DNA of 64,000 bases. It comes from Aureococcus anophagefferens (taxonomy: Eukaryota; Sar; Pelagophyceae; Pelagomonadales; Pelagomonadaceae). Below are positions 13,083 to 52,500 of this stretch, piece after piece. A program made the translations under genes and the position numbers. The stretch spans positions 186,001 through 250,000 of the forward strand of contig NW_008705561.1 of assembly GCF_000186865.1 (NCBI RefSeq). The letters are read 5' to 3'. The notes beneath the pieces were generated by a model, which saw only the letters and a program-made list of their open reading frames with translations, was not told the DNA's origin and did not search any database. Within the stretch, counting starts at the first letter, position 1; each line of letters opens with the position of its first letter.

Positions 13083-16000
13083 TTAGCGCCCTTCGCGGGA
13101 GCGGGGCCGCGCCGGCGCCGCGTCGACGCCGGCCGTGGGCGACTCGCGGCCGCCCGGCGGCCGGTCGCCGAGGGACGAGCCCCGGTCGCGGCCGTCGCCC
13201 TTGGGCCGGTCGCCCGTGGACTTGCCGCGCGTGCCGCGCGTGGAGTCGCGGTGGTGGCTTGCCTGCGCGAGCGCGTCGGGGGCGCCGTACGTCGACTCGC
13301 GGCCGCCGCCGAAGTTGTGGCGGCCGTCGTCGTCGGCCGCCGGCGCGTGGCCGTCGTCGCGCCGCGCGTTGTGCTCGAGGCGCTGGACCGCGTCCACGAG
13401 CAGCGACAGCTGCGACTCGAAGTTCCGCGCGCCGCCGCCGGCGTCGTCGCGCGACGCGCGCCGCGCGGGCGCGGCCGCGTCCCCGGCGCCCGGTGCGCCC
13501 GCGTCGCCGTCGCCGGCGGGCGGCGCCCCGCGGGGCCCGGCGGCGTCGGCGTCGTCGCGGGGCCGCTGCGCGGCGTCGTCGCCGGCCGTCGCGGCGTTCG
13601 ACGCCGTCTCCTTGAGCGCGAAGCACGTGTGCACGGGGAGCATGGTCGGCGTGCCCTGGAGCAGGCAGTTGAGCGCGTAGGTCTCGTGGGCCGTGAAGGT
13701 GCGCGTGCCCTTCTGCCACCACTCCCGGAGCGAGATCGCGAGCGACACGTACTCGAGCGGGTCGTGGTCGTGGCGCCTGGGCAGCACAAGAGTGATTTAA
13801 CGTCGCTTCAACGTGAGTGTTCCGCGCGCGCGCGTTCCGGAAAAAGCATCCACGCTTCAAGACCGTTCCGAGAGATGAACGCTCGTCCAAAAATCAGCCG
13901 AAACGAGTGGAAAACGGCCGAGATAGGAGCCTTTGAAGTTGGGAATTTCGCTCTCTTTTGCTGCCCTGCGTGGCGCGTGTGGTGGCGGAAGTCGTGGCCC
14001 GCGCGCTCGAGGCGGTCCGCCGTGAGGGAGCAGACGAGGCAGCACTCGCGCATGTCGATCTTCAGCATCTGCTGGTCCATGTACATGGCCGTGAACTCGT
14101 TGAGAATAATACCCGTGATCAACGCCTGGAATAACAGCACGAAGAAGATGAAGGCCATCACGTTGATCGCGATCCAGAGCGCCGACATGTAGTGCTCCCA
14201 AATATACAACTGGTTCGACGCGATGAGCGGGTAGAGCGGCACGTCGCCGAGCGTCGTGTACTCGTCCGGCTGCACGAACGGCGCGACGCCGAGGAACGCG
14301 TTCGTGATGCCCACGAGGAAGCACTGCCAGACGCTGTCGCACTGGACCCGCCCGAAGCTGATGAACACAAAGGCCGACGCCGCGAACATGCAGACGCCCA
14401 TGAAGAGCAGGATCCGCAGCAGGTTCGCGGAGCTCAGCCGCAGCGCGCGCGTCACGAACGAGATCGTCCGGTCGTTGCGCACGTAGGGCACGAGCACGAC
14501 CGAGTACCAGACGGGGCTCTGGAAGTTGCCCAGGACGCTCGCCGCCAACCCGAAGAGGGGCACGCCGAGCCGGCGCAGGAACCAGGCCCGCGCCCTGCCC
14601 AGCCACCGCCGGAGCCGCCGGTGCGCCGAGAGGTGCTCGAGCGGCGCGCCCAGGTCCCCCGCGAGCTTCGTGTAGACGTCGATGGCCCCCGAGTTCTGGC
14701 TCAGGTCCGCCGACGAGTGGTCCTTGCCCGCCGCCCTGTCCTCGACGGCCTCGCGCGCCTCCTGGGGCCGCGCGTGGCGGTCGTCGCCGTCGTCGTCCTT
14801 GTCGTAGAGCGCCGCGGCGACGACGACCTGGAGCGCCGCGAGGGCGACGTGGACCTTGCCGATGTACCAGGCGAGCACGCCGAAGTCGACGTTGATGGCG
14901 TCGCCCAGCAGGCTCCGCAGGGCCCGGGGCGTCCGCAGCACGTCGACGTCGATGTACGAGTACTGGAGCTTCCGGTCGTGGGTCCACCAGTCGTCGCCGT
15001 CGCTCCAGGTGTCGTCGCCGCCGAAGTTCACGTCGATGGTCTCCTCGACGGCGTCGCCCCGCGGCGCGTTCTTCCGCGTGTACCCGAAGAGCACGAGCGC
15101 GTTGAGCGCGAGCGTCGCCGCGAGGAGCGCCTTGTGCAGGAGCGAGATGGCGACCATCATGTACTGGGACTCGGCCTCGTCGAGGGCCTCGACGGCGATC
15201 TCGTTCATCTTCTTGAAGAAGGCGCGCGCCTTCATGTTCTCCGAGACCCCGACGCCGCGCGGGATCTCGCGGAGCCGACCCAGCGTCGCGTCGCGCCACG
15301 TCGCCTTGGCGAGCAGCGCGATGGCCAGCGGCGACCGCCGAAACAAGGTCACGGTCACGGAGCCGTCGGCCATGGCCAATTCCACGCTCCCGACGTGCTG
15401 CTCCAGCTCCAGCGTGTCGTTGCGCACGGATCGGAGCTCGTGGCGCAGCTGGTGGCAGAACGCGTCGAAGTCCCACGTCCCGCAGACGCGCTTGAGCCGC
15501 AGGCGCACGTGGCGCGACGCGTGGAGCTTCGCGACCTGGGCCAGGGTCTTTAGGACCACCAACGCCAGGTAGGACTCCTCGAGCACGTCCGCCTCCGCCG
15601 CGACGGCCGTGTTCGCGCGCGCCATCGCGAGGCCGAGCTTGATCGCGTGCGTGAGCTGGCGCAGCAGCGCCGCCGAGTCCTTCATGATCGTCGACAGGCC
15701 CACGATGTCGCGCTCGCGCAGCATCTCGAGCACGGTGCGCAGCACGGGCTCGCGGACGTTGTGGACCGCCTGGTTCTCGCGCGCGGGCTGGAGCCGCCGG
15801 AGCTGGAAGAGCCGCGACGCGCGCGCGGGCTCCTCGGACCCCCGCCGCCGGGTCGCCCGCGCGTCGCCGTCGGAGCCCCGCCGCCCGCCGTCGGAGCCCC
15901 GCCGGCCACCGCCGCGGAGCCCCCCGATCTTCGACGCCGAGTCGCGCTTCCGCCGCTCGGGCCGCTCCGCGGCGCGCGGCGCCTGGTCGTCGTCGCGCAG

Positions 16001-19000
16001 CGACCCGCGGCCGAGGCGCAGCAGCGACCCCGTGCGGTCGGCGAACGGGGTCTGCGCCCGCGACACCTGGTGGAGCGAGTAGGTCACGTTCCGCAGGAGC
16101 GTCGACGCGATGTCCATGTAGCCGTACTGGACGACCATGAGCTGGTTCCGCGGGTTGCCCTTCGTGAGCCAGAACAGGATCTCGCAGAGCGTCTCCGTGC
16201 AGTCCGCCGAGTCCTCGTCGTAGGACGCCGTCTCCGTCGTGAAGACCTGGAGCAGGCGCACCAGGTGCTCCAGGAGGCACGACGGCTCGCCCTCGCCGGG
16301 CGCGACGCCGCCCTCGTACGACGCGGACCGCACGTAGTCGTGGACGCGCCGCGGCGCCTCGCTCACGAGCATGAGCACGAAGCGCAGCGCGTCGCGCGCG
16401 ATGCCCCCCTCGGACTTGGACCTCGCCTCGGCCGCGTCGAGCTCCGCGGCCATGACCCTCAGCTGCTCCGCCTGCGTCGACTGGCCGCTCGGCGGCGGCG
16501 TGACGTACTTGCCCGGCAGGGCGCCCCCGCGGAAGCCGCCGTGGCCCGGCAGCGCCGACATGGTGCCGCGCCGGCTCAGCGCCGACGCGATGGCCGTCGA
16601 CGACCCCTCGCCGAAGATGTTCGCGGGGCCCGCGATCTTCGCCGCGGACGCGAGCGAGCTCCGGCGCCGGTTCGGCCCCGCGCCGGCGATGGAGCCCGTG
16701 CGCTGGCGGCTCGTGACGCCGCCGCCCGCGAAGGACACCATGGAGGCCCGCTCCTTGATGACCGACGACCGGCCCAGGGACCCGCCGAGACCCGCGTGCT
16801 TCACCATCGACCGCCGCGGCCCGCCGCCGGGCCCCGCGAGGTTCGCCTCCGACGTCATGCGCGCCTTCTTGAGCGAGTTGCCCACGTGGGCCTCGGACGT
16901 GAGCCGCGCCTTTTTGTGGTGCTCCAGCCCCGGCGCGCGCGACTGGTTCCGCGCCTTCGCGACCTCCGAGGGCACGTGCGCCGCGGCCTCCTTGATGGCC
17001 CGGGCCTTGGCCTTCTCGCGGCCCGTCTTGAACTTGCCCACGGCCAGCGCCACGTGCAGGTTCGTCGCCGCGTCGGGCCCCTTGGCGTGCTTGTGGCCGT
17101 CGCCAAACAGAATACCCGTCTTCTTCCGCTGCTCCGTCGCCATCGTCTGCCGGAGCTCGATGGCCTTGGCGTGCGTGACCTGCTTCTCGTAGACGATGCG
17201 CTTCTTGCGCAGGTCGCGGTGGGCGGCGACCCACTGGCCCACGCGCACCAGGAGCGACCGCAGCTGCAGCGCGAAGCGCGCGCCCTCGCCGCTGAGCGCG
17301 TAGTCGATGACGTTGCCCTGGACCGTCGCGCGCGTGGCTTGGCAGCTGAACAGGAGCGCCATGAGCGAGATCGACGGCGTCTCCAGGAGGGGCAGCCCCA
17401 TCAGCCCGAGCACGACCTTGTCCAGCGCCCACGTGTCGACCGCGTGGCTCACCGTGGCGCACGCGACGTCCGTCTGCGGCAGCGTCTGCTCCTGGACGTT
17501 GCCGACGCCCGAGTTCGCGCGGTAGTGGAGCATCAACAAAAAGGCGTGGAGCGCCATCTCGATCTCGCGCGTGTTGTGCTGGGCGCCGCGGACGCCCGCG
17601 CCCGACGCGCCCTCGGACGCCTCCAAACCCAGGTGCGCCGCGGCCTCGAGCTCCGCGGGCCGGCTCCTATAGATCTCGCCGTGCGACTTGACGATGTCGA
17701 GCCGCAGCGAGCTCACGAGGTAGGGGATGCAGAACTGGCCCTGGGCGCTCAGCAGCAGGAGCGCGATCTGCTGCGCGGCCTCCTCGTGGGGCTGCGGGCC
17801 GAGCTCGACGAAGCTTAGCACGAACGCGCGCCAGCACGACCCCACGAGGCTCGCCTCGTCGCCGCCGTCCGCGTGCGTCGCGACGCGCAGCTCCAGCGCC
17901 TTGGACCGCGCCTGCTTCTCCGCCGCGCGCTCCGTCGCCGTGCGGGCCTGCTTGGCGACGTTCGCCGTCAAAACGGCTTCGACGTCGAGGTAGCGCTCCA
18001 ACACGCCGTGGACGCGCGCGAGCTGCTTCGCGTCGAGCAGGTCCGGCCCCACCTCCGTGACGAAGTCGAACAAAGCCATGGCCAGCTTCTTCCGGCAGCG
18101 GTCGTCCATGGGCCGCAGCTTGCCCCGCATGAGCTCCCGCATGAGGTACTTGTTGCCGTAGCACGCCTCGACGGCCGGCACGACGCAGTCGCAGACGTAG
18201 TCCACGACCAATTTCCCGCTGTGCCAGGCCTCGGGCACGGGCTCGCGCGTGTGCGCCGGCGACGCGCTCCCCAGGTCCGGGCCGCCGGGCCCCCAGGCCT
18301 CCTCCTCGTCCGCGGCGCGCGCCGCGTCCGCGCGGAACCGCAGGCACCGGCGCACGTCCTCCGCGAACTCCTCCATGAGCGACTTCGTCGGCGGCCCGCC
18401 GGACGCCGCGTCGAGAAACGACGCGACGCCGCCGCCGCGGCCCGCCTTGGACGCGCCGTCGCGGCCGGACGCCTTGCCCGCGGCGCCGCGGCCCGTGTTG
18501 CGGTTCCCCGACACGGTCTGCCGCAGCAAGCGCAGGTGCGCGTCGGGCCAGATCCAGGAGATCATGGATCCGAACATCTCCGGCGAGCAGGACGTGCACT
18601 CCAAATAGACCTTGGTGATGAGCCGGAGCCAGGGGCCCTTGAGCGCGAGCGTGGACAGAAAGTGGTCGTCGCGGTCGACGCCGAACCAGTACCGCGTCGC
18701 CGCGTCGTCGTCGTCGTTGCCCTCGTCGAAGTCGTCCAACCCGTCGGGCTCGTCGTCGTCGTCGTCGGACTCGGAGGAAAGATAGGAGTCCTCGCTGTCG
18801 TCGTTCGAGGACTCGCCCGCGGACGCGTCGCCGCTCCGCACGGCCGCCAACACCTCGCTGTGCTTCTCGACGAGCATCTCGAGCTGCTTCTCCTCGCTGA
18901 AGGCGCCGATGACCGTCGCCGCGCACTGCTCGAAGCTCAACAGGCTGTGGAGCGTCCGCGCGGTCGCGCCGTTCGCGCACGCGCCCAGCAGGTCGATGCA

Positions 19001-22000
19001 CGCCGCGTGGTAGCGCACGACGGAGTCGACCGCAAAAAGGTACTCGCGCTTCTCGACGAAGGCGCGCATGTCGTCCTGCCAGTCCTCGCCGAGGTGGTCG
19101 AGGAGCACGGGCTGGTTGTCGATGACGACCTGGAGCACGGACGACTGGAGCTTGCGGAGCTCCGGCGCGGTTTCGTCCAGGTAGAGCATGCCCCGCAGCA
19201 GGCTCACGTAGGGCAACCGCCGCCCGTTGACGCAGGTCAGCTCCACGACCGTCTCGGAGATCGACGGCGCCAGGGAGCTCAGGATCGGCGGGTGGCTCCG
19301 GAAGACGGAGCCGAGCGCCCTCGCGACGGACGCCTCCAAGGGCCCCACGGCCAGATGCTCCTGGACGTGGCGCGCGTGGGGCGCGACCTCCTCCTGGAAG
19401 GAGGGACCGCCCCGGCAGTACAGCTCGATGAACTCCATGCAGCGCTCCATGAGCACCATGTAGTTCCGGTCGTAGCACCGCGCGGCCGACCCCGCGGACC
19501 CGCGGCGCCGCGCCTGCACGGCCCGCGAGTCGTCGATGTGGCGCAGCGTGTTCCGCACGGCGGCGACCTTGCTCTCGCGCTGGACCATGGTGCGCCGCCG
19601 GTACTCGGGGCTCAGCAAGTTCGCCTTCATGGACTCGCGGTGGATCGCGCTCCGCAGCGCCTCGATCTCCTCGAGGTCCTCGGGCGACACGCCCGGGTCG
19701 CCGTCGCCGGTTTCCTCTTCGTTGACCTCGGACTCGCCGCCGCCGGGCGTCGCGGCCCGGATTTCCTCCTCCGTGACGCGGCCCGGGTCCGGCGGCGCCT
19801 CGGGCTTCGGCCGGAGGTCGCAGTAGCGGTCGTCGCCGCCCTTTTTAAGCGTCCGCCGCCGCCCGTTCGGCGACGCGCCCGAGGAGTCGAGGCTCGGCCG
19901 CGGCGACGCCGCGTAGCTCGACTCGCTGTCGGCGGAGCCGCGCTGGAACTCGGCGCCGTCCGGCTCGAGGAGCTCGTCGTCGGGGTCGACGGCCGCGCGC
20001 ACGGCCGGCAGGCGCACGAGGCTCAGCACCTCCGGCAGGATGTTCGACCCCCGCAGGATCGCGAGCTCCTTGGGCACGTGGTCCGGCCCCCGGTCCGCGT
20101 CGCGGTCGCACGCCGCGCGCGCGAGGTCCGTGATGTACCGCAGCACGTCGACGGCCTTGGCGACCGCGACGGACCGCACGTCCTCCTCCATGTCTAATAC
20201 ATAAGTCGACAGCCGCCAGAGGATCTTCGCCGCCTGCTGGATGTGGCAGAGCGTGCGGTAGTCCTCCACGGAGCTAATGAAGGCGACGTGCTGGAGCTGC
20301 GTCGCGAGCGTCTCGTCGCGCGCGGCGACGTTCCGCACGAGGATGCGCATGGCCTCCGAGCGGATGTCGCCGTCGGGGCAGGTCTGGAGCTTCAGGAGGC
20401 AGAGGCTCAAGTTCGTGAGCATCTTCGGGTCGAGGTCGTCGTTGAAGATGGGCACGCGGTGGAGCTCCGCGGCGAGCTTCGCCGCCGCGGCGACGGTCAT
20501 GTCGAGCCGCCCGGCCTCGAGGAGCGTCACGGCCCCGGGCTTCGGCGGCGGCGCCTCGACGGGCGGCGCGCTCACCGCCGTGGGCCGCTTGCCGCCCGAT
20601 GGCTCGCCGGAGAGCTTGGACTGCATGCGGACGATCGCGGACGGGCTCCGGCCGCCCGAGTGGCCGCGCCGGAGGACCGCGGCCTGGCTCTCCGCGCGCC
20701 GCTTGGCGATGGCGTCGACCTTCTTCGCGTACTCGTCGCGGACCCGCAGATCCTCGACCAGGCGCGCCTCGAAGGCCGCCTGGAAGCGGTTGAGCTGCGT
20801 GTTGAGCTGGCGGTGGAAGAGCGTCTTGACGACCTGGGCAGGACACGAGTGATTCAACGTCGCTTCAACATGAGTGTTCCGCGCGCGCGCGTTCCGGGAA
20901 AAGCATTCACGCTTCGAGAACGTTCCGAGAGATGATCGCTCGTCCAAAAATCAGCCGAAACGAGTGGAAAACGGCCGAGAGAGGAGCCTTTGAAGTTGGG
21001 AATGTCGCTCTCTTGTGCTGCCCTGGCCGCGACCGATAAAGCGACGCGGTTGAGGTCGTGGACGATGACGCGCTTCGACCGGCTCGGCGTGCTGGCGACG
21101 CAGGAATTCAGGTTGAGCACCTTCATGACGACCAATAGGATGGTCTGCACGGTCTGGGGCCGCGCCGACGGCGCCTCCTTGACCGCGATCAAGGACCCGA
21201 GCCGCGACCCGCGCCGCGTCTTGCCGTCGACGCCCCGGTCCGGCGACGAGCCGCCGCCGAGCGTCGGGAACTTGGGCTTGCGGCCCGTCGGCGAGTCCGG
21301 CGCCTTCTCCTCGCCGCCGAGGCGCAGGCCCGGCGACACGCGCGGCGACTGCGCCGCGAGCGTGCCGCGGACGGCGACGTCGCCCTGCTCCGGCGCGTCC
21401 GCGCCGCGGCTCGCCTCGACGGCGGCGTCGGGCACGACGGCGGCGACGGCGTCGACGACCCCGAAGGAGAGCAGCCGCTCCATGGTCTTGAGCAGACACA
21501 GGATCAGCTCGAGGCGGTGGTTCGACGTCGCCTCCTCGGCCTTCGCGGACCGGCTCCCGCCCGCGGCGAGCATCACCCGCGACAGCGTCGACCGCCGCCG
21601 GCCGGCGGCCTGGGGCCTCCCGGGCACGTGGAGCGTCTCCTCGGCGATCAGGCTCCGCCGGTGGGCCGCGGGTTTTTGGGCGCCGCCGAAGTTGCGGTTC
21701 GTGCCGAACGACCGGCCCTCGCCGGGCTTGCCCGCGGTCGCGAAGGCGCGGCCCTTGCCCGCCTCCGTGGCGCGGTCCGCGGGGCCCGCCGGGTCCGTAC
21801 CCAGGCTCTCGGCGGACCCCGTGAGGGACGCGAGGGGGTGCATGACGTCCGCGAAGAGCTTCGGTAAGGACGGCGCCTCGTCGACGGACGTCGACAGCGC
21901 GTCGACGTCCGCCTCGTCGAAGCGGTCGCTGCGCTTGACCGTGACCCGGAAGTGGCTCCGCGACCGCGCCGTGCAGAGCACGGGCTGGGGCGCGTGGGGC

Positions 22001-25000
22001 TCCGCGTCCACGTAGAGCGCGTGCCAGAGGCGGCTCGCGGCGGACCGGACGAAGGACGGCACCATCGCGGACTGGACGACGCCCGTCAGCGCCGCGTAGT
22101 CCACGAGCTCCCTGAGCGCGGGCTGGCGCAGCAGGAGCTTCCGCGCGTTGCGGTTCCGGTGGCCGCACAGGTCCGCAAGGAGCACGAACGTGTGGCGCAC
22201 GTAGACGAGGAGCCGGTGCTCGGGCTCCTGCGACTTGGAACCGACGATGTGCTCCGTGATGTGCATGTAGGAGCAGGCGTCGACCCAGTTCCCGACGGCG
22301 TCCTTGGACTTTTGGCGCGACAGGGGCGACGCGGAGAGCTGGCTCGCCTGGCGGCGGCCCTTGGACAGGCCGTCGCCCTTGGACATGGACCGGCCGAGCG
22401 TGGACATGTTCAGCGGGCTCCTCCCGATCATGGAGTGGCGGATCGTCGCGTTGCCCCGCTGGAGCATGCCGCCGACGCCGCGCTTCGCCGCGGTCGACGC
22501 GGGCGCCGCGGCCGCGGGCGCGTCCGCCGGCGCCCTGTCGCCGCGGCCCGACCGCGACACGGGCCGGCCCTCGCCCCGCGACGCGGGCCGCGACGCCGGA
22601 CTCTGCGACGCGACGCCGGCGCGCTCCTTCATGAAGAGGCGGTAGGTCGCCTGGACGTGCTCGTCGGGCGCCGCGCGGACGCGCGGAAAAAAGCCCGCGC
22701 CGTCCTGCTTCGCGAAGACCGTCGCGGCGATGAGGTCCTGGTTGTGCTTCATGGGCACGCCGTCGCAGACCGTGAGGGCGCTGTACAGCTCCAGAATCTC
22801 CGGCAGGCAGCCCGCGGCGTCCGAGCCCGCCTGGAACAGACGGTCGATGAGCCCCTCCTTGGGATCCCGCAACGCGGCCTGGTTGTCCCGGTAAATCTCG
22901 ACGAGCAGCGCCTCGATGTCGACCTCCTTGCCCAAAAAATCAAACAGCAGCGCCTCCTGCTCCGCGAGCAGCCGCTTCACGACCATGTTGCCCGCGGTGA
23001 TCTTCAGGAGGAACTTGGCGCACGCGGCGCTCAGCCCGCGCGCGCCCGGGCCCGTGTCGAGGTGGTTCCGGCACATCTGGAGCGCCGTGAGCACCAGTCG
23101 GGGGATGTCCTGCTCCGCGAGGAGCATCTGCATGGAGTAGGCGACGCTGCTGCGCTGGTCCTTGCCCTTGTCGGCCTTGCCTGGGCAGCAAAAGGGTGCG
23201 AAATTCCCAACTTCAAAGGCTCCTATCTCGGTCGTTTTCCGCTCGTTTCGGCTGATTTTTGGACGAGCGATCATCTCTCGGAGCGCTCTCGAAGCGTGGG
23301 TGCTGTTTCCGAAACGCGCGCGCGCGGAACGCTCACGTTGAAGCGACGTTGAATCACCCTTTTGCTGCCCTGGGCCCTGCGGCCCGCGCCGCCGCACGTC
23401 GCGCGCATGTCGTCGATGGTCCGCGTGAGCATGTCGACGCGCTGCTGCTGCTCCTCCGCCGACGAGAGGGCGTAGAGCGCGTCGGCGGAGGACTTGATGG
23501 ACATGGCGCGCGTGTGGCGCTTGTTCTTGTCCTCGAAGCCGACGCAGAGCACGAGCTTGTTGCGGCAGCTCCTCGCGAAGACGACCTTGCGCGCCTCCTC
23601 CTCCGCGCAGCGGTGGACGGCGAAGGCGCTCTGCTGGGCGTGGGCGCCCTTGAAGGCCTCGAGCCTGGGCTCGCGGCCGTGGACGGCGACCTGTGTGGAA
23701 ATCAACCAGTGGAATGGACGCGTCCAGCAAAACTTCAAACCTCTCTATCTCGGTCAAATCGAAGTCGATTCGGCTGATTTTTGGACGAATCGATTGCTCT
23801 CGTCGAGTTCTCGAAGCACAGCCGAAGAACTTGCGTCGAAACTGTCGCGTACGCTCACATTGAAGTCGGGTTGAAGATTTGATTTGCACACAGACGGCGA
23901 CGTGGCAGTTGAGCGCGTAGCCCGAGACGACGGAGACGATGTTCACGGTGTCGCCGTCGCAGAGCGGCGCCGTCGCCGCGTCGCCGCCCGGCGACCGGTC
24001 CGCGCCGTCCCCGAAGGGGCCGCCGGGCGCGACGAGCCGCAGGCTGAAGAGCGTCGTGCCGAGCTTGTCCTCCCGCAAGCTCCGCCACGTCGTGAGCTCG
24101 ATGCCGCCCTCGTCCTCCGCGGACCGCTGCTGGCCCCGGTTCACGTAGCCCAGGTAGACGCCCGTCACGAAGTGCTTGATGCGGTAGTGGTGCCGCACGC
24201 CGGCCAAAATCTCCTCCGCGCCGGAGGGCATCTCCGTCTTCTCCAGCACCCACCAGCTCATGGAGTTCGTGAACGTCTGCTGCTTGTAGATGGACCGGTC
24301 GAACACGGGCCGCGTCGTCGTCGGGAGCTGCGACGACGTCGACCAGGACGCGGCCGGCAACGCGAGCTCCTCGAGCGTCTGCGTGAACGCGAGCTTGACG
24401 ACGTCGCTCCCGTTGAGCCGCCGCGCGAGCTTCAGCCGCTTCTCCAGGGACGTCTCCGGCTCCGCGGCCCGGAGCTGCATGATCTCCATGCGCAGGCCCG
24501 CCGTGTGCGTCGCGCAGACGCCGTCGACGCGCGACACGTGCGGGTGGCCCCGGGTCCGGAGCGTGCCCGCGGGCCGCTCCTTGTCCGCGGCCGCGCCGTC
24601 GGTGATCAGCAGCCGCATGGCCTGCTCGACAAATTCCAACACGACGAGGTTCCCGTTGCGGATCGTCAGCGCGTCGACGTGGGAGTCGTGGCTGTTGAGC
24701 GCGGGGAACAGACGCACGTGCGCGTCCGACGACGCCTCGCTGGGGTCCTTTAGCTGGATGTCGAGCGTGCCCGGGTTCGGCCCCTGGTCGCTGACGATGC
24801 ACAGCACCTTGCCCGTGCCGACCTAGGGGTGATTTTTTTGGGGGACGGGGTCGCGCCGCGAAAAAAGACGCGGGTCCGCGGGACGTGGTGCAGCTCCACC
24901 ACGGCGCCGTAGCGCACGGGCGTGCGGTGGAGGCGCCGGTTGTCGTCGGCGTTCTGCTGCTCCTCGAGCTCCGCGAGGCGCTGGAGCTCCGCGCGGCCGT

Positions 25001-26457: not shown

Positions 26458-26690
26458 GGCGGCCGCGCGCGCGGCGAGTAAGCGGCGGGGTCGTTCCGAG
26501 TTCGTACGTGCGGCACGCGTTTGTGGTTTATGTTTCTAGGACGGCGACCCGCGCCTCGATCCTCTAGGGCAGCCGCGAGCTCTCTAGCGAGTTCGGCGTC
26601 GGTCAGCTCGAGCTTGGAGAGGCTCGATGGGCGTCCGTGTCGGCGACGTTGAGTGAATGTTGAACATCATTGAACTTGCCAGCGACGAAT

Positions 26691-29206
26691 ATGACGCAGT
26701 CGAGGATGGTCATGCATTCGTGGCTAGCTTTCGCGCTCCTGCGCGTGTCGTCGGCGCTCGTCGCGCCGGCGCAGCGCGCGCGGATCGGTAGCCATCTCCC
26801 TGCCGGGATCCAGTTCGGCGACACGGGCGGCGCGGCCATCGTGCTCGACGACGTGGCCGTGCGGCGGGGCCCTGTGGAGCTGCTGAGCGGCGTGAGCTGG
26901 CGCGTGTTGCCCGGCGAGCGCTGGGGCATCGTGGGCCCCAACGGCGCGGGCAAGTCGACGCTGCTCGGCGCGATCCTGGGCGTCCACGAGTCGACGACGG
27001 GGGGGATCGCCGTGAAGGAGGACGCGTCCGTCGGCTACCTCGAGCAGACGGGCGTCGGCGGGTCGTCGTCGACGGTCCGCGAGGAGGTCATGTCGCGCAT
27101 GGGCGATCTCGCTGCCGCGCAGGCCGAGCTCGACGCGGCGACGGCGGCCGTCGAGGGCGGCGACTACTCGGAGGCGGCGCTCGAGCGCATGGGGACCGCG
27201 CAGGAGGACTTTGAAGACAAGGGCGGCTACACGGCGGAAGAAACAGTAGCCAAGGTGCTCGGCGGGTTGGGCTTCGACGTGAAGAGTGATCTGGACCGGC
27301 CCTGCGGCGACTTCAGCGGCGGCTGGCAGATGCGCATCGCGCTCGCGCGGCTCCTCCTCTCGGGGCCCGAGATGTTGTTATTAGACGAGCCGACGAACCA
27401 CCTCGACAGCGCCGCGCGGTCCTGGCTCGCGACCTACCTCGCGGACTACGAGGGCACGCTCGTCCTCGTGAGCCACGACACGGCCATGCTCAAGCGCGCG
27501 CGCGGATCAGGGCGGCACAAGAGAGCGAAATTCCCAACTTCAAAGGCTCCGATCGCGGCCGTTTTCCACTCGTTTCGGCTGATTTTTGGACGAGCGATCA
27601 TCTCTCGGAACGGTCTCGAAGCATGAATGCTTTTCATGGAACGCGCGCGCGCGGAACCCTCACGTTGAAGCGACAATGAATCACTCTGTTCCCGCCCAGG
27701 TGCGACTCCATCGCGGAGGTCGTCGGCGAACAGCCGCGCGCGGACCGCCCCGCGGGCCACGGCCGGCGCCTCGAGGCCTACAAGAGCTGCTCCTTCGACA
27801 AGTGGCGCCAGCAGCGCGCCGAGCGCGCGGCCCAGTGGGTCACGGAGTACGAGAAGCAGAAGGTCGAGGAGGCGGATCTGGAGGATTTCATCAGGAGATT
27901 CGGAGCAAAAGCGTCGAAAGCGGCGCAGGCCAAGGACCGCGAGCGGAAGCTGGAGCGGCTGCGCGAGGTCATGCGCCCGCGGCCGCCCGACGACATCGTC
28001 CAGCTCGCGAAGACGCTCGCCGACGAGACGGAGGCGCTCAAGCAGGCGTCGCGCGACGACGCGCCGGAGACCAATTTGGGCGACACGGTGGCGTCGCCGC
28101 TCCTGTCGACGCGCACGAAGACCTACCTGAAGTTGCCGACGCCGCCGGAGTGCGGCAAGATGCCCGTGGAGCTCAAGGGGGCGACCTTTGGGTGGCCGCC
28201 GCGCGCGTCGTCGGCGCCGCGCGCGAAGCGCGCGCGGCGCTCCGACGACGAGCTCGAGCTCGAGGACATCGACGTCGACGTGAAGCCCATCGTCCGCGAC
28301 GCGAATTTGGCCGTGGAGCGCGGCATGCGCATCGTCGTGCGCGGCGCGAACGGCGCGGGCAAGTCGACGTTGGTGAAGGCGGTCGCGGGCGCGTTGCCGC
28401 TCATCGCGGGCGAGCGCCGGTGCGACGACCGCCTGAGCCTCGGCTTCTTCCGCCAGGACCTGAGCCAGGAGCTCGACCAGGAGGCGACGGCGCTGGAGGT
28501 CGTGCTCCGGGGCACGCGGAAGGACGGCGACGCGATGACGTCGGAGAAGCAGGGCCGCGACACGCTCGGCGCGCTGGGCCTCCGGGGCGAGATGGCGCTG
28601 CGCAAGGTCGGCTCGCTCTCCGGCGGCGAGAAGGCGCGCGTCGCCCTCGCCTGCTTCGTGCTCGTGCCCAACAACGTGCTCATCCTCGACGAGCCGTCGA
28701 ACCACCTCGACGTCGACACCGTCGCGGCGCTCGCGAACGGTCTGAACGCCTTCGAGGGCGCGGTCATCGTCGTGAGCCACGACCGCGCCTTCGTCGACGA
28801 GCTCAAGCCGACGCACGTCGCGACGGTGGCCGACGGCGCCGTGTCGCTCGAGAAGCGCGACCTCACGGACGCGGACTGGGACGTGTCGTCCATCGACGAG
28901 CGCGGCGCGCCCGCGGCCGACGCCGTCGTCGTCGCGGAAGCCGAGGCGCCGGCGCCCGTCGTCGAGGTCGTCGAGGACGACAAGACGCGCAAGAAGCGCC
29001 ACAACGCGCCGAAGCGCATGGAGAAGCTCGAGGCGCTCATCGCGGACGCGGAGGCCGCCGTCGCGGCCATCGACGCCGACATGGCGGCCGAGCGCGACGC
29101 GGGCGCGCTCATGGGCCTCCAGGAGAAGCGCGACGCGACGCAGGCCGACGCCGACAAATTCTGGGCCGAGTACGGCGAGCTCGAGGAGCTCCTCGCCGCG
29201 GCGTAA
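26691..29206 (+). CDS. ABCF-type ATPase with plastid presequence, split by an introner
   Basis: Exons 26691-27499 and 27700-29206 encode 771 residues. Two ABC domains: Walker A GPNGAGKST (82-90), signature FSGGWQMR and Walker B LLLDEPTNHLD in the first; GANGAGKST, LSGGEKAR and LILDEPSNHLD in the second. Between them is the charged ABCF linker (DFIRRFGAKASKAAQAKDRE). No membrane spans: ABCF proteins act on ribosomes in translation. The leader WLAFALLRVSSALVAP looks like a heterokont plastid signal, suggesting a plastid ribosome factor. A C-terminal helix pair (residues 700-771) resembles a coiled coil. The introner falls just after the first H-loop (SHD). The first in-frame ATG at 26691 is used as start. 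Confidence 0.93.
27500..27699 (+). mobile_element. Introner E (family 1), 200-nt GC-AG intron in ABCF
   Basis: Sense orientation, phase 2. Ends CAGGGCGGCA and CCCGCCCAG. Duplication decayed: GCGCGGAT versus GTGCGACT (5 of 8). Splicing joins MLKRA to CDSIAEVV, the normal ABCF path; unspliced frames run into element sequence. Confidence 0.92.
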
Positions 29207-29235
29207 GGAGGTGTCTATGCTAGACTCCAGGTGGC

Positions 29236-42066: not shown

Positions 42067-42073
42067 GAGCGAC

Positions 42074-42964: not shown

Positions 42965-43587
42965 TCTTTGGGCCCGCAACGGCAGGCAGAGGGCCGCAAA
43001 GATCAAGCCCATAGCCGGCCCAAGCAAGTCCGACGGGAGTGGATACGTTTCACGGCAAGTGTGGTGTCGAGGTATTGACGTAATTACGGCAAGTATCGAC
43101 GATTTATCGGTCGATTCCGGCCGGTTCGGCCGGTCTCGGTCGCGGTGTCGGCCGGTGTCGATCCAAAAAAACTACTGCAAGTATCGGCAAATATCGGAAA
43201 AGTCGCTCGGTATCGGCCGGTGTCGGTCAGGGTGTCGATCGGAGTTGGTGCCGTGTCGAAAATTGTCGATGGTCGCGCCTAGCCCCGCTAAAAAATGTCG
43301 GAAAATATCGATAAATATCGAATTAAATGTCGAATAAAATCGATTAAATCGGCTCGCGTCGCTCGATTTATCTTGGTATCGGTGGCGGTGTCGGTCGGTC
43401 TCGCCCAAACTACGGCAAGTATCGGTCGATTTATCGGTCCAAAAAAACACGGCAAGTATCGGGTCGTTTGCGTCGTCTCCCGTCGGCCCTGCTTGAGCCG
43501 GCCCCAGGGCCTCAACTTTGTCAACTTGCACCATGTTGCCGTCTGAGAGCAGCCCCAAATTATGATGGCATAAGCACCCCCATCGAG
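42965..43587. other. Spacer dominated by TCGG-rich repeats
   Basis: No gene is supported. Most of this interval is the low-GC repeat region listed separately; the right end is the leader of the fucosyltransferase-like gene. Confidence 0.5.
43040..43465. repeat. AT-richer degenerate repeat array (TATCGG/TGTCGG type)
   Basis: The interval is built of imperfect short units ending in TCGG or TCGA. CGGCAAGTATCGG or a close variant occurs about five times (near 43053, 43087, 43175, 43413, 43450), always in the same orientation. TCCAAAAAAAC occurs twice. GC content is far below the rest of the window. Confidence 0.8.
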
Positions 43588-44445: not shown

Positions 44446-44489
44446 GGTGCTCGACGACGCGCGCGGCGACACGGCGGCTATTAAAGATC

Positions 44490-44848: not shown

Positions 44849-45052
44849 CTGCCGGCGCTCGCGAAGGTCATCCTGGGCGGGCCCGCGGCGGACCTGCCGC
44901 ACCCGGAGCTGGACTGGAAGGGCTTCCTCAAGGCCCTGGACCTGTGCCAGCGCGACTACACGGTCTGGGACCCGGCGCGGAACCGGCGGCGACCTTGGTT
45001 CCACATCAAGAAGATGAAGAAGTGCTACGGCGACGGCTGCGCCATCTCCTAG
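44849..45052 (+). pseudogene. 3' terminal exon of an unknown gene, 5' part missing
   Basis: After an acceptor-like CGCAG the frame is open for 67 residues ([19 protein letters not shown], then [11 protein letters not shown]) and ends in CAIS followed by TAG. CAIS fits a CaaX prenylation box. No upstream exon is found on this strand; the preceding DNA is the antisense of the paladin-like fragment. Not recognised as a family. Confidence 0.5.
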
Positions 45053-45122
45053 GGGGGCAAATTCGAAGACCGCGCCCCCACCCCTACGAATTCGGCCTCC
45101 AGTTGTACGGGAGCGCGCGCGC

Positions 45123-46493
45123 TCAGTGGTGGTGGTGCGCCGCGTCCTGGGTCCAGTTGATCGTCGAGAGGTCGACGCCCTCCTGGACGAGCTCCCAGAG
45201 CGGCGACATGTCGCGGAGGCGGCCGACGTGGGTCTTGAGGAGGTCGACGGCGAAGTCGAGCTCCTGCTCCGTCGTGAAGCGGCCGATGCCGAAGCGGATG
45301 GACGTGTGCGCGAGGTCCTCGGAGACGCCGATGGCGCGGAGCACGTACGACGGCTCCAGGGACGCGGACGTGCACGCGGAGCCGCTGCTCACGGCGATGT
45401 TCTTGATGGACATGAGCAGCGACTCGCCCTCGACGTACGCGAAGGACAGATTCACGTTGCCCGGGTGGCGCGCCGTCGGGTGGCCGTTGAGCACGACCTC
45501 GGGGATGTGCTCGTCGACCGCGTCCATCAACCGCTTCGAGAGCCTGGCGATGTGCGCCATGTCGTTGTCGAGCTCGCGCGCCGCCACGTCGGCGGCGGCG
45601 CCCAGCCCGACGCAGAGCGCCGTCGGCAGCGTGCCGGACCGCAGGCCGCGCTCCTGGCCGCCGCCGGAGAAGACGGGCTCGAGGCGCACGCGCGGCCGCC
45701 GCCGGACGTAGAGCGCGCCGACGCCCTTGGGCCCGTAGAGCTTGTGGCCCGAGATGGACACGAGGTCCGCGCCGACGTCGTCGACGTCGAAGGGCAGCTT
45801 GCCGACCATCTGCGCCGCGTCCGTGTGGAAGAAGGCCTTGGCCTTCTTCGCGATCGCGCCGATGGCCTTGAGCGGCTGGAGCGTGCCGATCTCGTTGTTC
45901 ACGGCCATGACCGACACGAGGGCCGTCTCCCCGGGCCGCACGGCGGCCTCGAGCTCCTCGAGGTTCACGAGGCCCGTGGCCCGCTCCACGGGCAGGTACG
46001 TGACCTCGAAGCCCTCGGTCTCGAGGACCCGGCAGCTGTCGAGGACGCACTTGTGCTCCGTCTGCGTCGTCACGATGTGCTTCTTCTTCTTGCCGTAGAA
46101 GTGGGCGACGCCCTTGATCGACATGTTGTTGCTCTCCGTGGCGCCCGACGTGAAGACGACCTCGCGCGGATTCGCGCCGATCAACGTCGCCACCTGCTCG
46201 CGCGCGGTCTCCACGGCCTCCTCCGACTCCCACCCAAAGGAGTGGGTCTTCGAGTGGGCGTTGCCGAAGGACCCGACGAGGTAGGGCAGCATGGCGTCGA
46301 GCACGCGCGGGTCCACCTGGCTCGTCGCCTGGACGTCGAGGTACGCCGGCACGCCCTCCCGCGACATCTCGTCGATGGCGAAGCCCAGGGGCTTGTCCGG
46401 GTCGCCCATGCGCGCCTCCGCCGGCAAAGCGCTCAGGGCCCGCGACGGGACCCGCGACCGGAGGCCAGCAGACAGCAGGCGGGACGCGATCAT
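45123..46493 (-). CDS. NFS1: Mitochondrial cysteine desulfurase
   Basis: The 456-residue protein is a class V aminotransferase-fold desulfurase that supplies sulfur for Fe-S clusters. The PLP lysine is in [12 protein letters not shown] (Lys251) and the catalytic loop cysteine in [17 protein letters not shown] (Cys374). [13 protein letters not shown] and TSGATESNN are also diagnostic. The N-terminus ([20 protein letters not shown]) is a typical mitochondrial presequence. It ends in AAHHHH instead of the more usual SPLW-type tail, although SPLWEL occurs upstream. Divergent from the helicase gene with 201 bp between starts. Confidence 0.97.
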
Positions 46494-46694
46494 CTTCGAG
46501 CTGGCGCCTTCTCCGCTTTTGCGATTCTGCTTCGCGGCTAGTCAGTCCTCTTTGGCCACCCGCCTGCGGGCCGACCTTGCCCCGCTCGGAGAGCGGTTCA
46601 AGAGAACCCGCAGGCAAGAGGCAGCGCTGAGCTTCGGCCGCCGAAGCCAGACCGAAACTCGTCGACGTGCGCCTCTCTGGCGTCAACGCACGCC
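46494..46694. promoter_or_regulatory. Divergent promoter region of NFS1 and the RecQ-like gene
   Basis: These 201 bp must hold both promoters. Half of the interval is occupied by the left hairpin repeat (46549-46647). Confidence 0.5.
46549..46647 (+). repeat. Hairpin repeat, left copy
   Basis: About 100 bp containing GCCTGCGGG and, 40 bp later, CCCGCAGGC, which can pair. The same sequence recurs in inverted orientation at 49351-49444, sharing CACCCGCCTGCGG and CCCGCAGGCAAGAGGCA, with a diverged loop. Confidence 0.75.
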
Positions 46695-48626
46695 ATGGAC
46701 CTCGAGGTAGACTCCCTGGGCGACGCGCCGTCGCTGGAATGGAAAAAATCGGCCCGTCGGCGGTCGAGCACGGGCTCTCGGAAGGTTCCCCGGCGATCGG
46801 TGCTGAGCGAGTCGACGAATCGGCACAACAACGCCGCCGACGACGCCGAGGCCGACAGCGACGGCGACCTCTGCCACAAGACCGACCCCGAGCGCGGGGA
46901 GACGTGGTTGGCGCGGTGGGGCGAGCTCGTCGACGCGCTCCCCGCCATCGACGACGACGTACCGCCGGACGCGTTCCGCGGCGCGGCGCGCGAGCTGCTG
47001 CGGCGTGGCGTCGAGATCGTCGACGCCGCGGACGCGGAGGACGCGGCGGGGCGCGACGCGCTCGTGCTCCGCTTCGTCGACGGACCGGAGGGGCGGGTCT
47101 CGCTGCCGCCGCCGTTCGACGACCCGTTCTCGTTCGCGAACGACTACCTGCCGCTCTACGGCCCGCTGCGGGGGTTCCAGGTCGACGCCATCGCGGCGCT
47201 CCACGAGCGGCGCGACGTCCTCCTCGCCGTGCGCTGCGGCGCCGGCAAGAGCCTGCCGCCGGCGATGGTCGCGGCGGCTCGGGCCCGGGACGCGTTGGAC
47301 CGCGGCGCGCAGCAGGTCTGCGTCTGGACCGCGCCGACGCAGGCGCTCGTCGCCGACAAGGTCGACGACCTCCAGGGGCGCTACGGCGAGGGCTGGCGGA
47401 ACGCGGGCGGGCGCGGCGACTTCGCCGCCGCGGTCGCCGGCCTGGAGCGCGCGGGCGCGCGCGACGACGACGGCGACGTCGTCTTCGACTACGCGGACGC
47501 CGCCGCGTCGAGCTCGACGTCGGCGTCGACGGCGCGCCACCCCGTGCTGGCCGCGATCTCGGCCAAGGCGTGCGACGTCGCCGTCCTGGTCATGTGCCCC
47601 GAGATGCTCGCGGAGCACGCGGCGTGGTTCGTGCTCGCGGCGCGCGCGGGCATCATCTCCCTCGTGGTCATCGACGAGTGTGACGAGGAGGTCGGCAACG
47701 ACGACTCGTTCCGGCGGAGCCAGGAGGCGCAGGGGCGCACGATCCAGGCCTGCTTCGCGTTGGCCGGCGCGAAGGCGCCCGTCGTCGCCCTGTCGGGCAC
47801 GCTGTCCAAGTTCGAGGTGGGCTCGCTCCTCGAGGCCCTCGGCCTGCCGCCCGCGCCGGCGACGCTCGTCATCCGGACGGCGTCGCCGATCAACTCCATG
47901 GTCGACATCCACACGGGCGAAGCCGACGACGAGGACCCGGACGGCTACGGCGCGCCCTGCGCGAGCCCCCTGGACCACGTGGCCGTGAGCCCGCCGGCGC
48001 CGGTCACGCAGCGGCCCGTGGGCACCGCCTTCCAGCTCGAGCTCGCGCGCGACTCGTGCGAGCCGCCGCCGACGGCCTTGGCGACGCGCCGCGCCGCGCG
48101 CCGGGCCGGGTCCGACGCGCAGCTGGCCAAGGCGTTGGGCATGGCGCAAGAGGGGCCGAACGCGCTGCTCGTCGCCGCGAGCGCCGCGATCTCGGACGCG
48201 ACGGCTCCCGCCGAGCCCGGCGCCGGCGACGAGGCCGATCGGGCGACGATGCGGCGCGCGGAGACCCTGCTCCGGCGCCAGAAGAGCGCGCTCGTGGCCG
48301 AGCGCGACGGCGCGGCGGCCGAGCACGCGCACCTCTGCCAGGAGAAGGTCCGGGTCCTGAAATCCAGCACCGCGAAGATGCAGGACCTGAAGGCCACGAT
48401 CAAGCAGTGCAACGCCGCGCTGCGCAAGAACCAGAAGGACAGCAACGTTGTCCAAGCCCGGCGCAAGGCGGCCGAGCTCCAGGACCGGCTGCGCGCCGCC
48501 ACCGCCGCGGAGCCCGAGGCCGACGGCGCCGTGGAGCGCGACCCCGACGACGAGATCCGCATCACGGACGGCGAGCCCGTCTTCTCCGACGCCGACGACA
48601 GCGACGGCGACTTCGGCGACGCCTAG
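46695..48626 (+). CDS. RecQ-like helicase N-terminal half without the second RecA domain
   Basis: The 643-residue protein has superfamily 2 motifs in RecQ order: Q-like LRGFQVDAIAALHERRDVLLA, motif I RCGAGKS (180-186), Ia CVWTAPTQALVADKV, motif II VVIDECDEEVGND (324-336; DECD in place of DEVH) and motif III VVALSGTLS. Motifs IV-VI of the second RecA domain are absent. After residue 400 the chain becomes low-complexity, with a coiled coil (residues 515-610: RATMRRAETLLRRQKSALVAE, KMQDLKATIKQCNAALRKNQ) and an acidic tail. Without domain 2 it cannot be an active helicase alone. It is flanked by inverted hairpin repeats, so it may belong to a mobile unit. Confidence 0.75.
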   Translation: MDLEVDSLGDAPSLEWKKSARRRSSTGSRKVPRRSVLSESTNRHNNAADDAEADSDGDLCHKTDPERGETWLARWGELVDALPAIDDDVPPDAFRGAARELLRRGVEIVDAADAEDAAGRDALVLRFVDGPEGRVSLPPPFDDPFSFANDYLPLYGPLRGFQVDAIAALHERRDVLLAVRCGAGKSLPPAMVAAARARDALDRGAQQVCVWTAPTQALVADKVDDLQGRYGEGWRNAGGRGDFAAAVAGLERAGARDDDGDVVFDYADAAASSSTSASTARHPVLAAISAKACDVAVLVMCPEMLAEHAAWFVLAARAGIISLVVIDECDEEVGNDDSFRRSQEAQGRTIQACFALAGAKAPVVALSGTLSKFEVGSLLEALGLPPAPATLVIRTASPINSMVDIHTGEADDEDPDGYGAPCASPLDHVAVSPPAPVTQRPVGTAFQLELARDSCEPPPTALATRRAARRAGSDAQLAKALGMAQEGPNALLVAASAAISDATAPAEPGAGDEADRATMRRAETLLRRQKSALVAERDGAAAEHAHLCQEKVRVLKSSTAKMQDLKATIKQCNAALRKNQKDSNVVQARRKAAELQDRLRAATAAEPEADGAVERDPDDEIRITDGEPVFSDADDSDGDFGDA

Positions 48627-48705
48627 CCCTGCGGGGCCTAGCCCAATTCACAGCTAAATTAGCCGCTCTCACGATCGTTCTCGACTCGGAGGTTGTCTCG
48701 CGCGC

Positions 48706-49030
48706 TCCTGGACTGCGAGCTGCTGCGGCTTCCGCGATCCGCCGTACACTCCGTTCCGATTGTGTGAGATATCGCCGGACGGCCTGTCGCGTCGCTCGCG
48801 CGTACGGCGCACGAGCTCGTCGTCGGCCAGCTCGTCGTCGGCCGCAGCGAACCGGCTCCGCGACTCTGCCCGCGCCCGACGGAGTCCTGGACCGCGTGCG
48901 CGGCTTCCGCGGTCCGCCGCACGTCGTCCGGGCGCGCGTCGCTGGACGGGCCGTCGCGTCGCGCGCGCGCCCGACGCACCAGCTCGTCGTCGGCCGCGGC
49001 GAAACGGCTCCGCGGTCCGCCGGCTCTGCG
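48706..49030. repeat. Two degenerate direct repeats of about 175-180 bp
   Basis: TCCTGGAC, GGCTTCCGCG and AGCTCGTCGTCGGCC recur in order at 48706/48727/48821 and 48885/48902/48981. A third partial copy of the CGGTCCGCCG block lies near 49012. Confidence 0.65.
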
Positions 49031-49350
49031 ACACGATGTCGGCTCCGCGGACTTCCGCCGAGGCAGCGAGAGGCCGAGGGCCACGTGTGTTTCCTCGCAC
49101 GGGCATCGATTCGGGATGCCCTGGGACGGCTTTGAAGCTTTCGAGCGGCCCGCGAGACCGTCGGTGGACGGTGTTCAGCTGGGCCGCGCTGAGGGCTCTC
49201 CGAGAGCGATCCGTCCGGCGCTCGTTCTCGGCGCCAGGTGCATCGATTGCGACCATTCAAGCGCTCGAACGTCCCCTCGGTAGGCAAGGTCGAAGGCCGC
49301 GGCGGGACTTTAGTTGATCACGGCGCACACAGCGAGGTCGGGGGCCGCCG

Positions 49351-49444
49351 CTTCGTGGCCGAGCTCAGCGGTGCCTCTTGCCTGCGGGTCCTTGGACCGA
49401 GCGCGCGCGCTTGGCCGGGGGTCCGCAGGCGGGTGCTCTTTGGC
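49351..49444 (-). repeat. Hairpin repeat, right copy (inverted)
   Basis: Inverted relative to 46549-46647, so the RecQ-like gene and the 48.7-49.0 kb repeats lie between two facing copies. Confidence 0.75.
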
Positions 49445-49523
49445 GTCCCGGTCCGGAGGCAGCCTGCTGCCACGCCCATCTGGCGCGTACACCTCGACGA
49501 GACGCCACCGCTTCTCCAACCAC

Positions 49524-52500
49524 TTACGCTCCCAGGTCCACGTCCGCGAGCGCGGCGTCGTCGCCGTCGCGGAAGCGCCCCGGCGCCCAGGCGTCGATCT
49601 CGTCCGCGGACGCGGGCCCCGGCGGCACGACGCCCCGGCAGACGACGCAGCCGCCGTTGCACTGGGAGCAGGGCCGGCCCGGCCGGCAGTCGGAGCAGAA
49701 CGTGCAGCCGCAGCGCGTGTCGCGCGGGTAGGGCCGCAGCGCGACGTGGTCCTCGACGCCGTCGTTCGAGCAGAAGAGGCGGCAGCCGCAGACGGAGCCC
49801 GACGTGCCGCGCTGGAGGCACGCGTAGCAGAAGTGGGTGCCGCAGTTAAGGCAGCCCGTGCCCGGCTTGATGTGGTGGCACGCGTGGCCGTGGCAGTGCG
49901 TGATGCGGAACGCGCACTGCGGGCACGGCTTCGACGTCGCCTCGACGAACGCCATCGTCGCCGTCGGGTCCGGGCCGTCCTTGACCTGCTCGCAGGTCAA
50001 TAGTGCGTGCGCGGGCACGCGGCAGCGCACGCAGGACCGCCGGTTGCAGTGCGGGCACGCGACGAACGGCGGCGGCCCCTCGAAGTCGTCGGGCGCGGCG
50101 CCGCCTTCCAACTCGTCGTCCACGCCCTCCGGCAGGGGCGCGTGCGGGTTGTCGCGCTGCTGCGCCAGGTGCCGCGCGAAGCCCAGCATGGAGCTCGTGA
50201 GCCGCCGCGGCAGCCGCGCTAGACCCTCGCGGACCGCGCGCTGGCTGCTGCCCGCGCCCGCGCCGTACTTGACGAGCGCGTCGCGGTGGGGCACGGCGAA
50301 GAGCCGCGCGCAGGTCGGGTGCGTGCAGTAGAACCGCTCCGCGACGTCGATGGACGCCTCGTAGAAGAACCGCACCAACCGCTCGAACTCGTCGCTCCGC
50401 AGCGGCAGCGTCTCCTCGGCCATGTCGTCGCGCACGGGCCGCGTCACCAGGCGCTCGACGACGTCCACGGTGACGACGCCGTCGCAGCCGCCCACGTGCA
50501 GCGGGCACCGCAGGCCGTCGTCGCGGACGAGCTCCGCGACGTCTCCGAGGCACGACCGGACCTGTGCCGAATTCAAATCTTCAACTCGACTTCAATGTGT
50601 GCGTATGCGACGGTTTCGACGCAATTTCTTTGGCTTGGCTTCGAGAACTCGATGAGAGCAATCGATTCGTCCAAAAATCAGCCGAATCGACTTCGATTTG
50701 ACCGAGCTAGAGAATTCTCAAGTTTGGTCAGGACCACCCAAACCAGTGGTTGAATTCGGCACAGGACCGGACGTAGCCCACGGAGCACGACGTGCAGAGC
50801 TGGTGGCCGCAGGCGCCCAGAGCCACGAGGTACTGCGCCGACACGGAGTCGAAACAAATCGAACAGCACAGCTCCAGGGTCGGCGCGACGATCTCGCTCG
50901 CCTCGCCGCAGCGGCTGCACACCGGCGACCGCCCCCTGAACTCGGCCGCGCACGCCGCGCACAGCGTCGCGTGGCCGCAGGGCGTGTCCACCACCAGCTC
51001 CTTCGACTCGCCGCAGACGCCGCAGGCCGACGCGAGGAACCGCCGCTGCGCGCCCCGCCGCGCGCGCTTCGTCGCCGCGATCGCCGCCCGGAGCTCCGCG
51101 ACGGACGCGGACCGCGACGTCCGCCGCTCGAGAGCGCTCGCCTTGACGGGCGCGAGCTCGATGTTCCCGAGGGGGCCGACCTCCTGGGCGTCGTCCCGCT
51201 TCCGCGACGACGCGCCCGTCCGTAAAATGACGTCGCGGACGTCGCTCGGCGCGCGGCACGCGTTGCAGATGGCGCCGTTCTCCTCGCGGAAGCGGTCCGC
51301 GCACTCGTTGCACAGGAACTGGTGGCCGCAGGGCAGGTTCAGCGCCGCGGCGCGCCGCTGGCGGCACAGCGTGCAGGCGAAGCTCGAGATGTTCTTCACC
51401 TTGGCCTCGGTCGCCGCGCGCTCGCGCTCCCACTTGCGCGTCTGCCGCAGGAAGTCGCGCCGCAGGCGCAGGCGCACGACGCAGCGATAGACTTCCCGGG
51501 CGACGGCGCCGACGTCGACGACCGGCACGCAGCACAAGAAGCAGACCGCGGCGACGGCGAGGAAGACCGTGCCGGCGACGAGCGACGCGTGGCGCTCGCC
51601 CGGGTCGCAGCCCTTGGCCAGGGACGTCGCCGCGAGGCGGCCCTTGTAGGGCCAGGACTCGGACCGCTGGCGCAGGGGCTGGAGCCACGCGGCGAAGAGC
51701 GCGCCGCCGAGGAGCGAGCTCGCGACGAGCGACGACCCGAAGACCATGGGGATGAGCTCGCTCCGGTAGGCGTGGACGCGCGTCGGCCAGCCCGCGAGGC
51801 CCCGGCTCACGAGGAAGCCGCCGACGTTCACCTGGAGGAAGACGGCGGCCGTGCCGAGGAGCAAGGGGCCCGCGGCCGTGAAGACGGAGGTGACGATGTA
51901 GGCGCTGCGCTGGGCCCGCCCGAGGTTGCCCCCGCAGAGCACGGAGCCGCCGGCGTTCGCCGTCGTCTCCGGCGCGAAGTAGGTGCCCAACAGGCTCGCC
52001 GGCGACCGCGTCGGGCACGCGTCGCACCGCGCGTGGCCCTCGCCGCGCGCGTACTTGCCGAACGGGCACGCGGCGCAGGTCGACGCGCCGGACGCGGCGT
52101 AGGTGCCGCTGCGGCACGCGGCGCAGGCCGTCGCCGCGGAGAGCACGGGCGCCTGGCAGACGTACCCAAAGTGCGCGCGGCAGTTCTCGTCCCAGAGCTC
52201 GCCCGTCGCGCCCATGCGGACGCAGCGGTAGGAGATGAGTTCGATGTCCTCCGTGGGCTCGCGCGTGGTGGTGCCCTCGGCGTCCGTCGTCTCGTACCAG
52301 TTGCGATAGTCGGAGCAGCACTCCGGGTTCGTCCAGGAGAAGGCCTTCTCGTTGCCGCGCTCGGACATGCCGATCCACATCGCCGCGACGCCCCGCAGCT
52401 CGGCCTGCTCGGCGACGAAGCGCGCGTGGCTCGGCCCGGAGACGCAGGCGAGGTGGCCGCCGAGCGAGTTGCAGGACCGCTCGGCCGCGGTCCACGTGCT

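Follow-up and report, generated by a model that had tools for sequence, protein, structure and literature searches.

What are the six sequences, each exactly 200 or 211 nucleotides (nt) long, that interrupt coding frames within a single stretch of the Aureococcus anophagefferens genome? This stretch, referred to here as the window (C1:186001-250000, 64,000 nt in length), has a GC content of 70.6% and belongs to a genome of 49.05 Mb in 86 contigs. An earlier note on the same DNA had described the six as introners. We conclude that they are almost certainly introners, that is, short non-autonomous DNA transposons (miniature inverted-repeat transposable elements, MITEs) of A. anophagefferens which, to judge from their letters, would behave as spliceosomal introns. 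The six intervals were read straight from the window letters and are listed below with their predicted intron types.

13777..13976, minus strand: introner a1, family 1, subfamily 1a; predicted GC-AG intron, phase 2; element 13777-13968, target copy 13969-13976, exon copy 13769-13776; duplication 8/8 (CGTGGCGC).
20834..21033, minus strand: introner a2, family 1, subfamily 1a; predicted GT-AG intron, phase 0; element 20834-21025, decayed target copy 21026-21033; duplication 4/8 (counted from letters).
23181..23380, minus strand: introner a3, family 1, subfamily 1b; predicted GC-AG intron, phase 1; interior reversed relative to the gene; element 23181-23372, target copy 23373-23380; duplication 7/8.
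23691..23901, minus strand: introner b1, family 2; predicted GT-AG intron, phase 0; element 23691-23893, target copy 23894-23901; duplication 8/8 (ACGGCGAC).
27500..27699, plus strand: introner a4, family 1, subfamily 1a; predicted GC-AG intron, phase 2; decayed target copy 27500-27507, element 27508-27699; duplication 5/8 (counted from letters).
50562..50772, minus strand: introner b2, family 2; predicted GT-AG intron, phase 0; interior orientation opposite to b1; element 50562-50764, target copy 50765-50772; duplication 8/8 (GACCGGAC).

The arithmetic of the intervals is simple: a 192-bp element plus one 8-bp target copy makes up each 200-nt intron (n = 4), and 203 bp plus 8 bp makes up each 211-nt intron (n = 2). 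The positions and lengths given in the earlier note were confirmed by direct read-out and by profile search. The profiles were built from 55 family-1 and 36 family-2 copies, with a1, a2, and b2 among the training copies and a3, a4, and b1 outside them, and all six copies were recovered at E-values of 1.1e-59 or better. No seventh introner was found in the window with either family profile among matches up to E = 1. The duplications, which had been described as perfect in three copies, 7/8 in one, and decayed in two, are indeed 8/8 in three, 7/8, 4/8, and 5/8. A blind scan of the window for 8-bp duplications flanking inverted ends gave 25 candidates, among them four of the six introners (a1, a3, b1, and b2). 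Of the other 21, 20 are GC-rich (≥ 70%) and were ascribed to chance, and one, at 43021, resembles a different element. Removing each of the six intervals yields an open frame (6/6), in line with the claim that coding frames are interrupted and restored. If b1 were retained in the transcript, the frame would shift, yet no stop would follow for the next 600 nt of unspliced sequence in that frame. RNA folding gave z-scores of −1.0 for a1 and −3.7 for b2; since the outer stems are the terminal repeats themselves, we draw nothing further from these scores.

Further copies with the same ends exist throughout the genome. An end 16-mer occurs 431 times, a 19-base core common to both families 2184 times, and the two-ended family-1 element, defined by exact 14-base ends, 440 times; the reversed pattern, counted in the same 49-Mb genome, was found zero times in each case, which excludes chance. 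Between the two families, ~148 columns can be aligned. Conservation of the core exceeds the average for the whole element (0.976 vs 0.950 in family 1, 0.996 vs 0.949 in family 2), and we therefore regard the families as sisters. The division into two families in the earlier note therefore stands in that they are distinguishable, with the addition that they are related and that family 1 comprises at least two subfamilies. Likewise, the two size classes are exact in the window, but a few copies elsewhere deviate in length by one to ten bases. Decayed copies were also observed (L089 at 107-276, L090, and L099), the latter two apparently within coding sequence, and they may be read as pointing to older insertion rounds. 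One contig from IMG/VR carries the 19-base core, but it is low-GC and phage-like, with the match in the middle of an apparent coding sequence, and was judged by eye to be a chance match and not a viral vector. The a1 element had no match in a phage collection.

To evaluate coding sense and frame, a codon-usage score was computed over 240 nt on each side of every copy, with a model trained on three window genes from which the introns had already been removed. The family-1 set comprised 42 copies from examined loci, including a1 and a2, that were found by a CAG...CAG end rule; from the 30 pattern-sampled loci L009-L038, 27 were used, as L010 and L015 duplicate earlier loci and L033 was removed by the end rule. 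Coding sense agreed with the AG end in 42/42 of these copies, and the frame was kept in 40/42. Their duplications are exact in 34/42 and match at least 7/8 in 39/42, and the first two bases are GC in 30, GT in 10, and other in 2. An extra family-1 set of 13 copies, picked by end type among the listed two-ended copies (11 of subfamily 1b and 2 of a third type), showed the expected sense, the frame, and a start of G followed by C or T (GY) in 13/13. Here GT was seen nine times and GC four times, so the GC share differs between subfamilies. The AG end lies downstream in coding sense in all 55 family-1 copies tested, which represent 54 distinct copies since L087 of the extra set was already among the 42. 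For family 2, 31 of 37 copies had clear coding sequence on both sides, and all 31 kept the frame and started with GY; the duplication is exact in 29/37, and the interior orientation is nearly even (16 vs 15).

When the duplicated 8-mers were taken together, 71/73 started with GY (GC 47, GT 24, other 2), compared with 19.7% of window dinucleotides. Their ends were a purine followed by C in 25/73, again vs 19.7% (p = 0.003), a weak palindromic target preference. A strict two-sided coding test on the sense strand was passed by 37/42 family-1 copies, vs 1166/2082 random window positions on either strand. Removal of 200 nt at random points kept the frame in 6/58 cases, though this serves as a frame-shift control only, because 200 is not a multiple of 3.

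The element ends carry the strongest asymmetry. The two ends of a family-1 element do not carry the same second base. Each of the 50 family-1 matches listed, of 440 two-ended copies, pairs a CAG end with a CTG end, so that only one end offers an AG acceptor and none of the 50 has two. A genome-wide count found no copy (0/440) in which both ends lack an acceptor. Whichever way the interior of the copies examined is oriented, their acceptor lies downstream in coding sense, which implies at least two family-1 subfamilies with the acceptor at opposite ends. Family-2 copies mostly read CTG...CAG. The second base at the sense 5' end is unchanged in 25/31 and altered in 6/31, and the sense 3' end is CAG in 31/31, giving 6/31 second-base changes at the upstream end vs 0/31 at the downstream end. 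These patterns are what would be expected if splicing were under selection. The terminal inverted repeats are at least 12 bp long. Two longer elements, L070 (177-655, 479 bp) and L075 (148-649, 502 bp), match family 1 over ~20 bp at their ends, but their termini read CAG...CTG and neither offers an AG acceptor. The 8-bp duplication of L075 is perfect (CGCGCGAC), and L070 lacks a clear one.

These observations bear on whether the copies are simply ordinary MITE insertions that disrupt genes, being recent, polymorphic, or located in pseudogenes, and that are not spliced. Like any MITE, the elements are short, with repeats at their ends and 8-bp duplications on either side, and the 479- and 502-bp relatives have similar ends without an acceptor. 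Such insertions, however, would predict no sense bias, an ordinary duplication start, and no preference for a downstream AG, in contrast to the complete sense agreement in family 1, the excess of GY starts, the invariant acceptor in family 2, and the lack of acceptor-less two-ended family-1 copies. Four insertions within a single 3642-amino-acid open frame would also have to be accommodated, and we consider this explanation very improbable.

The same data bear on repeated introns spreading via RNA, by reverse splicing and copying, instead of by DNA transposition. An RNA route has been proposed for fungal introner-like elements in passages of PMC9860276, and the family-1 copies examined here are sense-strand genic introns, as the strict coding test indicates. 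What this route does not lead one to expect are the 8-bp duplications with one copy inside the intron, the terminal inverted repeats, the occurrence of family 2 in both orientations, and a longer element such as L075, with similar ends, a perfect duplication, and no acceptor. We regard spread via RNA as extremely improbable. Insertion as DNA transposons is the introner reading that the earlier note proposed, and it is well supported here by exact copies in the hundreds and still more that are nearly identical, by a GY start from the target, an AG from the element end, and the frame kept across many copies.

Three genes in the window host the six introners.

13083..24822, minus strand: host gene of a1, a2, a3, and b1; open frame of 3642 amino acids after removing the four elements.
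26664..29206, plus strand: host gene of a4; ABC-F ATPase, 771 amino acids from the first ATG after removal of a4.
49524..52911, minus strand: host gene of b2; C-type-lectin/RING-like protein after removal of b2.

The earlier note had held that domain sequence is restored at every junction, and this was upheld for a1, a4, and b2, with b1 supported in another way and a2 and a3 by frame. The C-terminus of the 3642-residue protein resembles ryanodine/IP3 receptors, and across the a1 join it aligns without gaps to the C-terminus of RyR1 (E = 8e-8) and more weakly to that of IP3R (6e-5), with aligned cysteines preceding the join and one aligned histidine following it. The a4 join is gap-free within seven residues against bacterial YheS, and it is identical in the eleven top-scoring ABC-F matches (97.9-98.9% identical to the spliced protein), all of which are continuous and may derive from complementary DNA or from empty sites. 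The b2 join shows no gap in four homologues (P0121, P0122, P0123, and P0125), one of which has an MMETSP transcript source, and the Pfam RING domain PF13445 spans it at a score slightly below the cut-off. In P0128, a gene model of A. anophagefferens, the b1 join is the same. This model matches the receptor-like gene at 95%, with 65% of the query covered, and has a further N-terminal part beyond the 3642-residue frame. For a2 and a3, Pfam returned nothing, nor did PDB for a3, and the support for these two joins comes from the open frame. ARAGORN placed a tRNA-Arg on the minus strand at 13086-13177, within the 3' end of the receptor-like coding sequence; Rfam returned none there, and the call is probably spurious.

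Several observations weigh against the introner interpretation or its details. Two of the 42 family-1 copies, L021 and L029, are not in frame as scored (the downstream flank of L021 looks non-coding, and the 8-mers of L029 are offset), and 6/37 family-2 copies are ambiguous. A slight bias toward the result comes from the codon score, since the genes it was trained on had been stripped of these same introns. In public A. anophagefferens models, P0012, P0013, and P0015 omit 78, 41, and 41 residues just before the a4 join, and P0128 continues six codons into the GC-donor a3 and then ends. P0019, from the same species, shows the a4 join as predicted. The deviations in the four other models are apparently gene-prediction errors at GC donors, though other splicing could also account for them. 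The splice motifs of A. anophagefferens introners are called canonical in a passage of PMC7789003, whereas GC donors outnumber GT donors here. Finally, no transposase was found: searches of the genome with PF05699 and with PF18758 (KDZ, Zisupton-like) gave 0 matches each, and the control genomes were likewise silent.

How would such an element become an intron? A transposase acting in trans would insert the element and duplicate 8 bp of the exon. Where the duplicated 8-mer starts with GC or GT on the sense strand, the copy upstream of the element would provide the 5' splice site, and the outward-reading element end, where the terminal repeat finishes in CAG (family 1, CTTTTGCTGCCCAG; family 2, GAATTCGGCACAG), would act as the 3' splice site. 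Excision of one 8-mer together with the element would then restore the exon as it was before insertion. MITEs of the hAT superfamily have CAGGG-type termini and 8-bp target duplications, and the window elements share both features; the transposase is presumably hAT-like, given these ends and duplications. Unlike hAT MITEs, family-1 elements have ends that differ mutually at the second base, and the PF05699 search, in which the controls were also silent, turned up no hAT transposase.

An autonomous partner element was sought through family-1 ends without the introner interior. This gave 20 matches, and 82 when one mismatch was allowed, most of these 82 being the introner's own GGGTGCG end. In 15 regions examined around end matches, besides L070 and L075, no coding element was found; 13 of the regions hold introner copies, L090 and L099 looked one-ended and proved to be the decayed introners in genes mentioned above, and L091 and L095 are without assignment. 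L070 and L075, the only longer elements seen in the examined regions, are too short to encode a transposase, and when L070 served as query in a DNA search, no element other than these two came up.

These two relatives suggest an ancestral end without an acceptor, as a lead from two examples in which the reverse direction of change is possible too. We tentatively propose that, in an ordinary, hAT-like CAG...CTG terminal repeat, one T-to-A substitution at the penultimate base turned CCCTG into a CCCAG acceptor. The substitution would have arisen separately at opposite ends in two subfamilies of family 1 and, in family 2, at both ends, with the longer sister MITEs keeping unmutated ends. This route is possible, but we hold it to be somewhat less likely than its negation.

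The candidate at 43021 in the blind scan belongs to a different, 475-bp element (43021-43495, 52% GC) with a perfect 8-bp duplication (AGCCGGCC). Its inverted ends are CAAGCAAGTCCGAC and GTCGGCCCTGCTTG (12/14 in the scan), it contains internal ACGGCAAGTATCGG-like repeats, and neither introner profile matches it.

Introners of A. anophagefferens reportedly carry one splice site themselves and co-opt the other from the duplicated target, as Huff, Zilberman, and Roy are said to have described in Nature in 2016. The earlier note had named Aureococcus as a precedent, and the window turns out to come from this very species: the ABC-F protein is 99.5% identical to A. anophagefferens P0012 over 655 aligned residues (a figure of 93% refers to a local alignment of one exon). 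The 2016 paper is cited in PMC9860276, PMC7789003, and PMC9481584. In passages of two papers, introners of this species are described as having direct and terminal inverted repeats and a constant length (PMC7789003), with a characteristic length of ~210 bp (PMC9481584). The window elements resemble them in host species, judged by protein identity, and in their inverted repeats and constant length, a comparison of features and not of the sequences themselves. They also resemble the families of Gozashti et al. 2022, in the passages of PMC9860276 covered, in their duplications, inverted ends, 3' site within the element, 5' site within the duplication, and genic bias. Family 4 of Aureococcus sp., from a Tara metagenome genome, is described there as carrying both splice sites and adding 12 bp to the transcript, unlike the window copies, which add nothing. 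GC 5' sites range from 0 to 50% in that survey, whereas 47/73 were found here, and 4/13 in the set picked by end type. The window elements are thus a known system in its known host species, and the finding is real and known in kind; what is new here may be the route by which a one-base change makes a splice acceptor of a transposon end.

The donor counts touch on an older puzzle. In a 2011 survey (PMC3033335), 39.6% of A. anophagefferens introns are GC-AG, and their origin is called an enigma. Much of this excess would be explained if donors were taken from GC-rich target copies. A link between introners and GC-AG introns was not met in the literature passages covered, which come from PMC9860276, PMC9481584, PMC7789003, PMC3033335, and PMC12768974.

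Few mechanisms have been shown to create introns in bulk, and introners are one of them. The window illustrates them cleanly, since it holds both intact and decayed copies, four of the six in one gene. In the end states, sequence alone gives a sign of selection for splicing, one that can be sought where RNA does not exist, and some public gene models of A. anophagefferens appear to be wrong at GC-donor introners. With the longer relatives, whose ends are unmutated, the passage from transposon to intron can be put to the test. If the one-base route is true, this genome preserves the step from an ordinary MITE to an intron-maker, and the unexplained GC-AG excess would also be accounted for, with donors coming from GC-rich target duplications.

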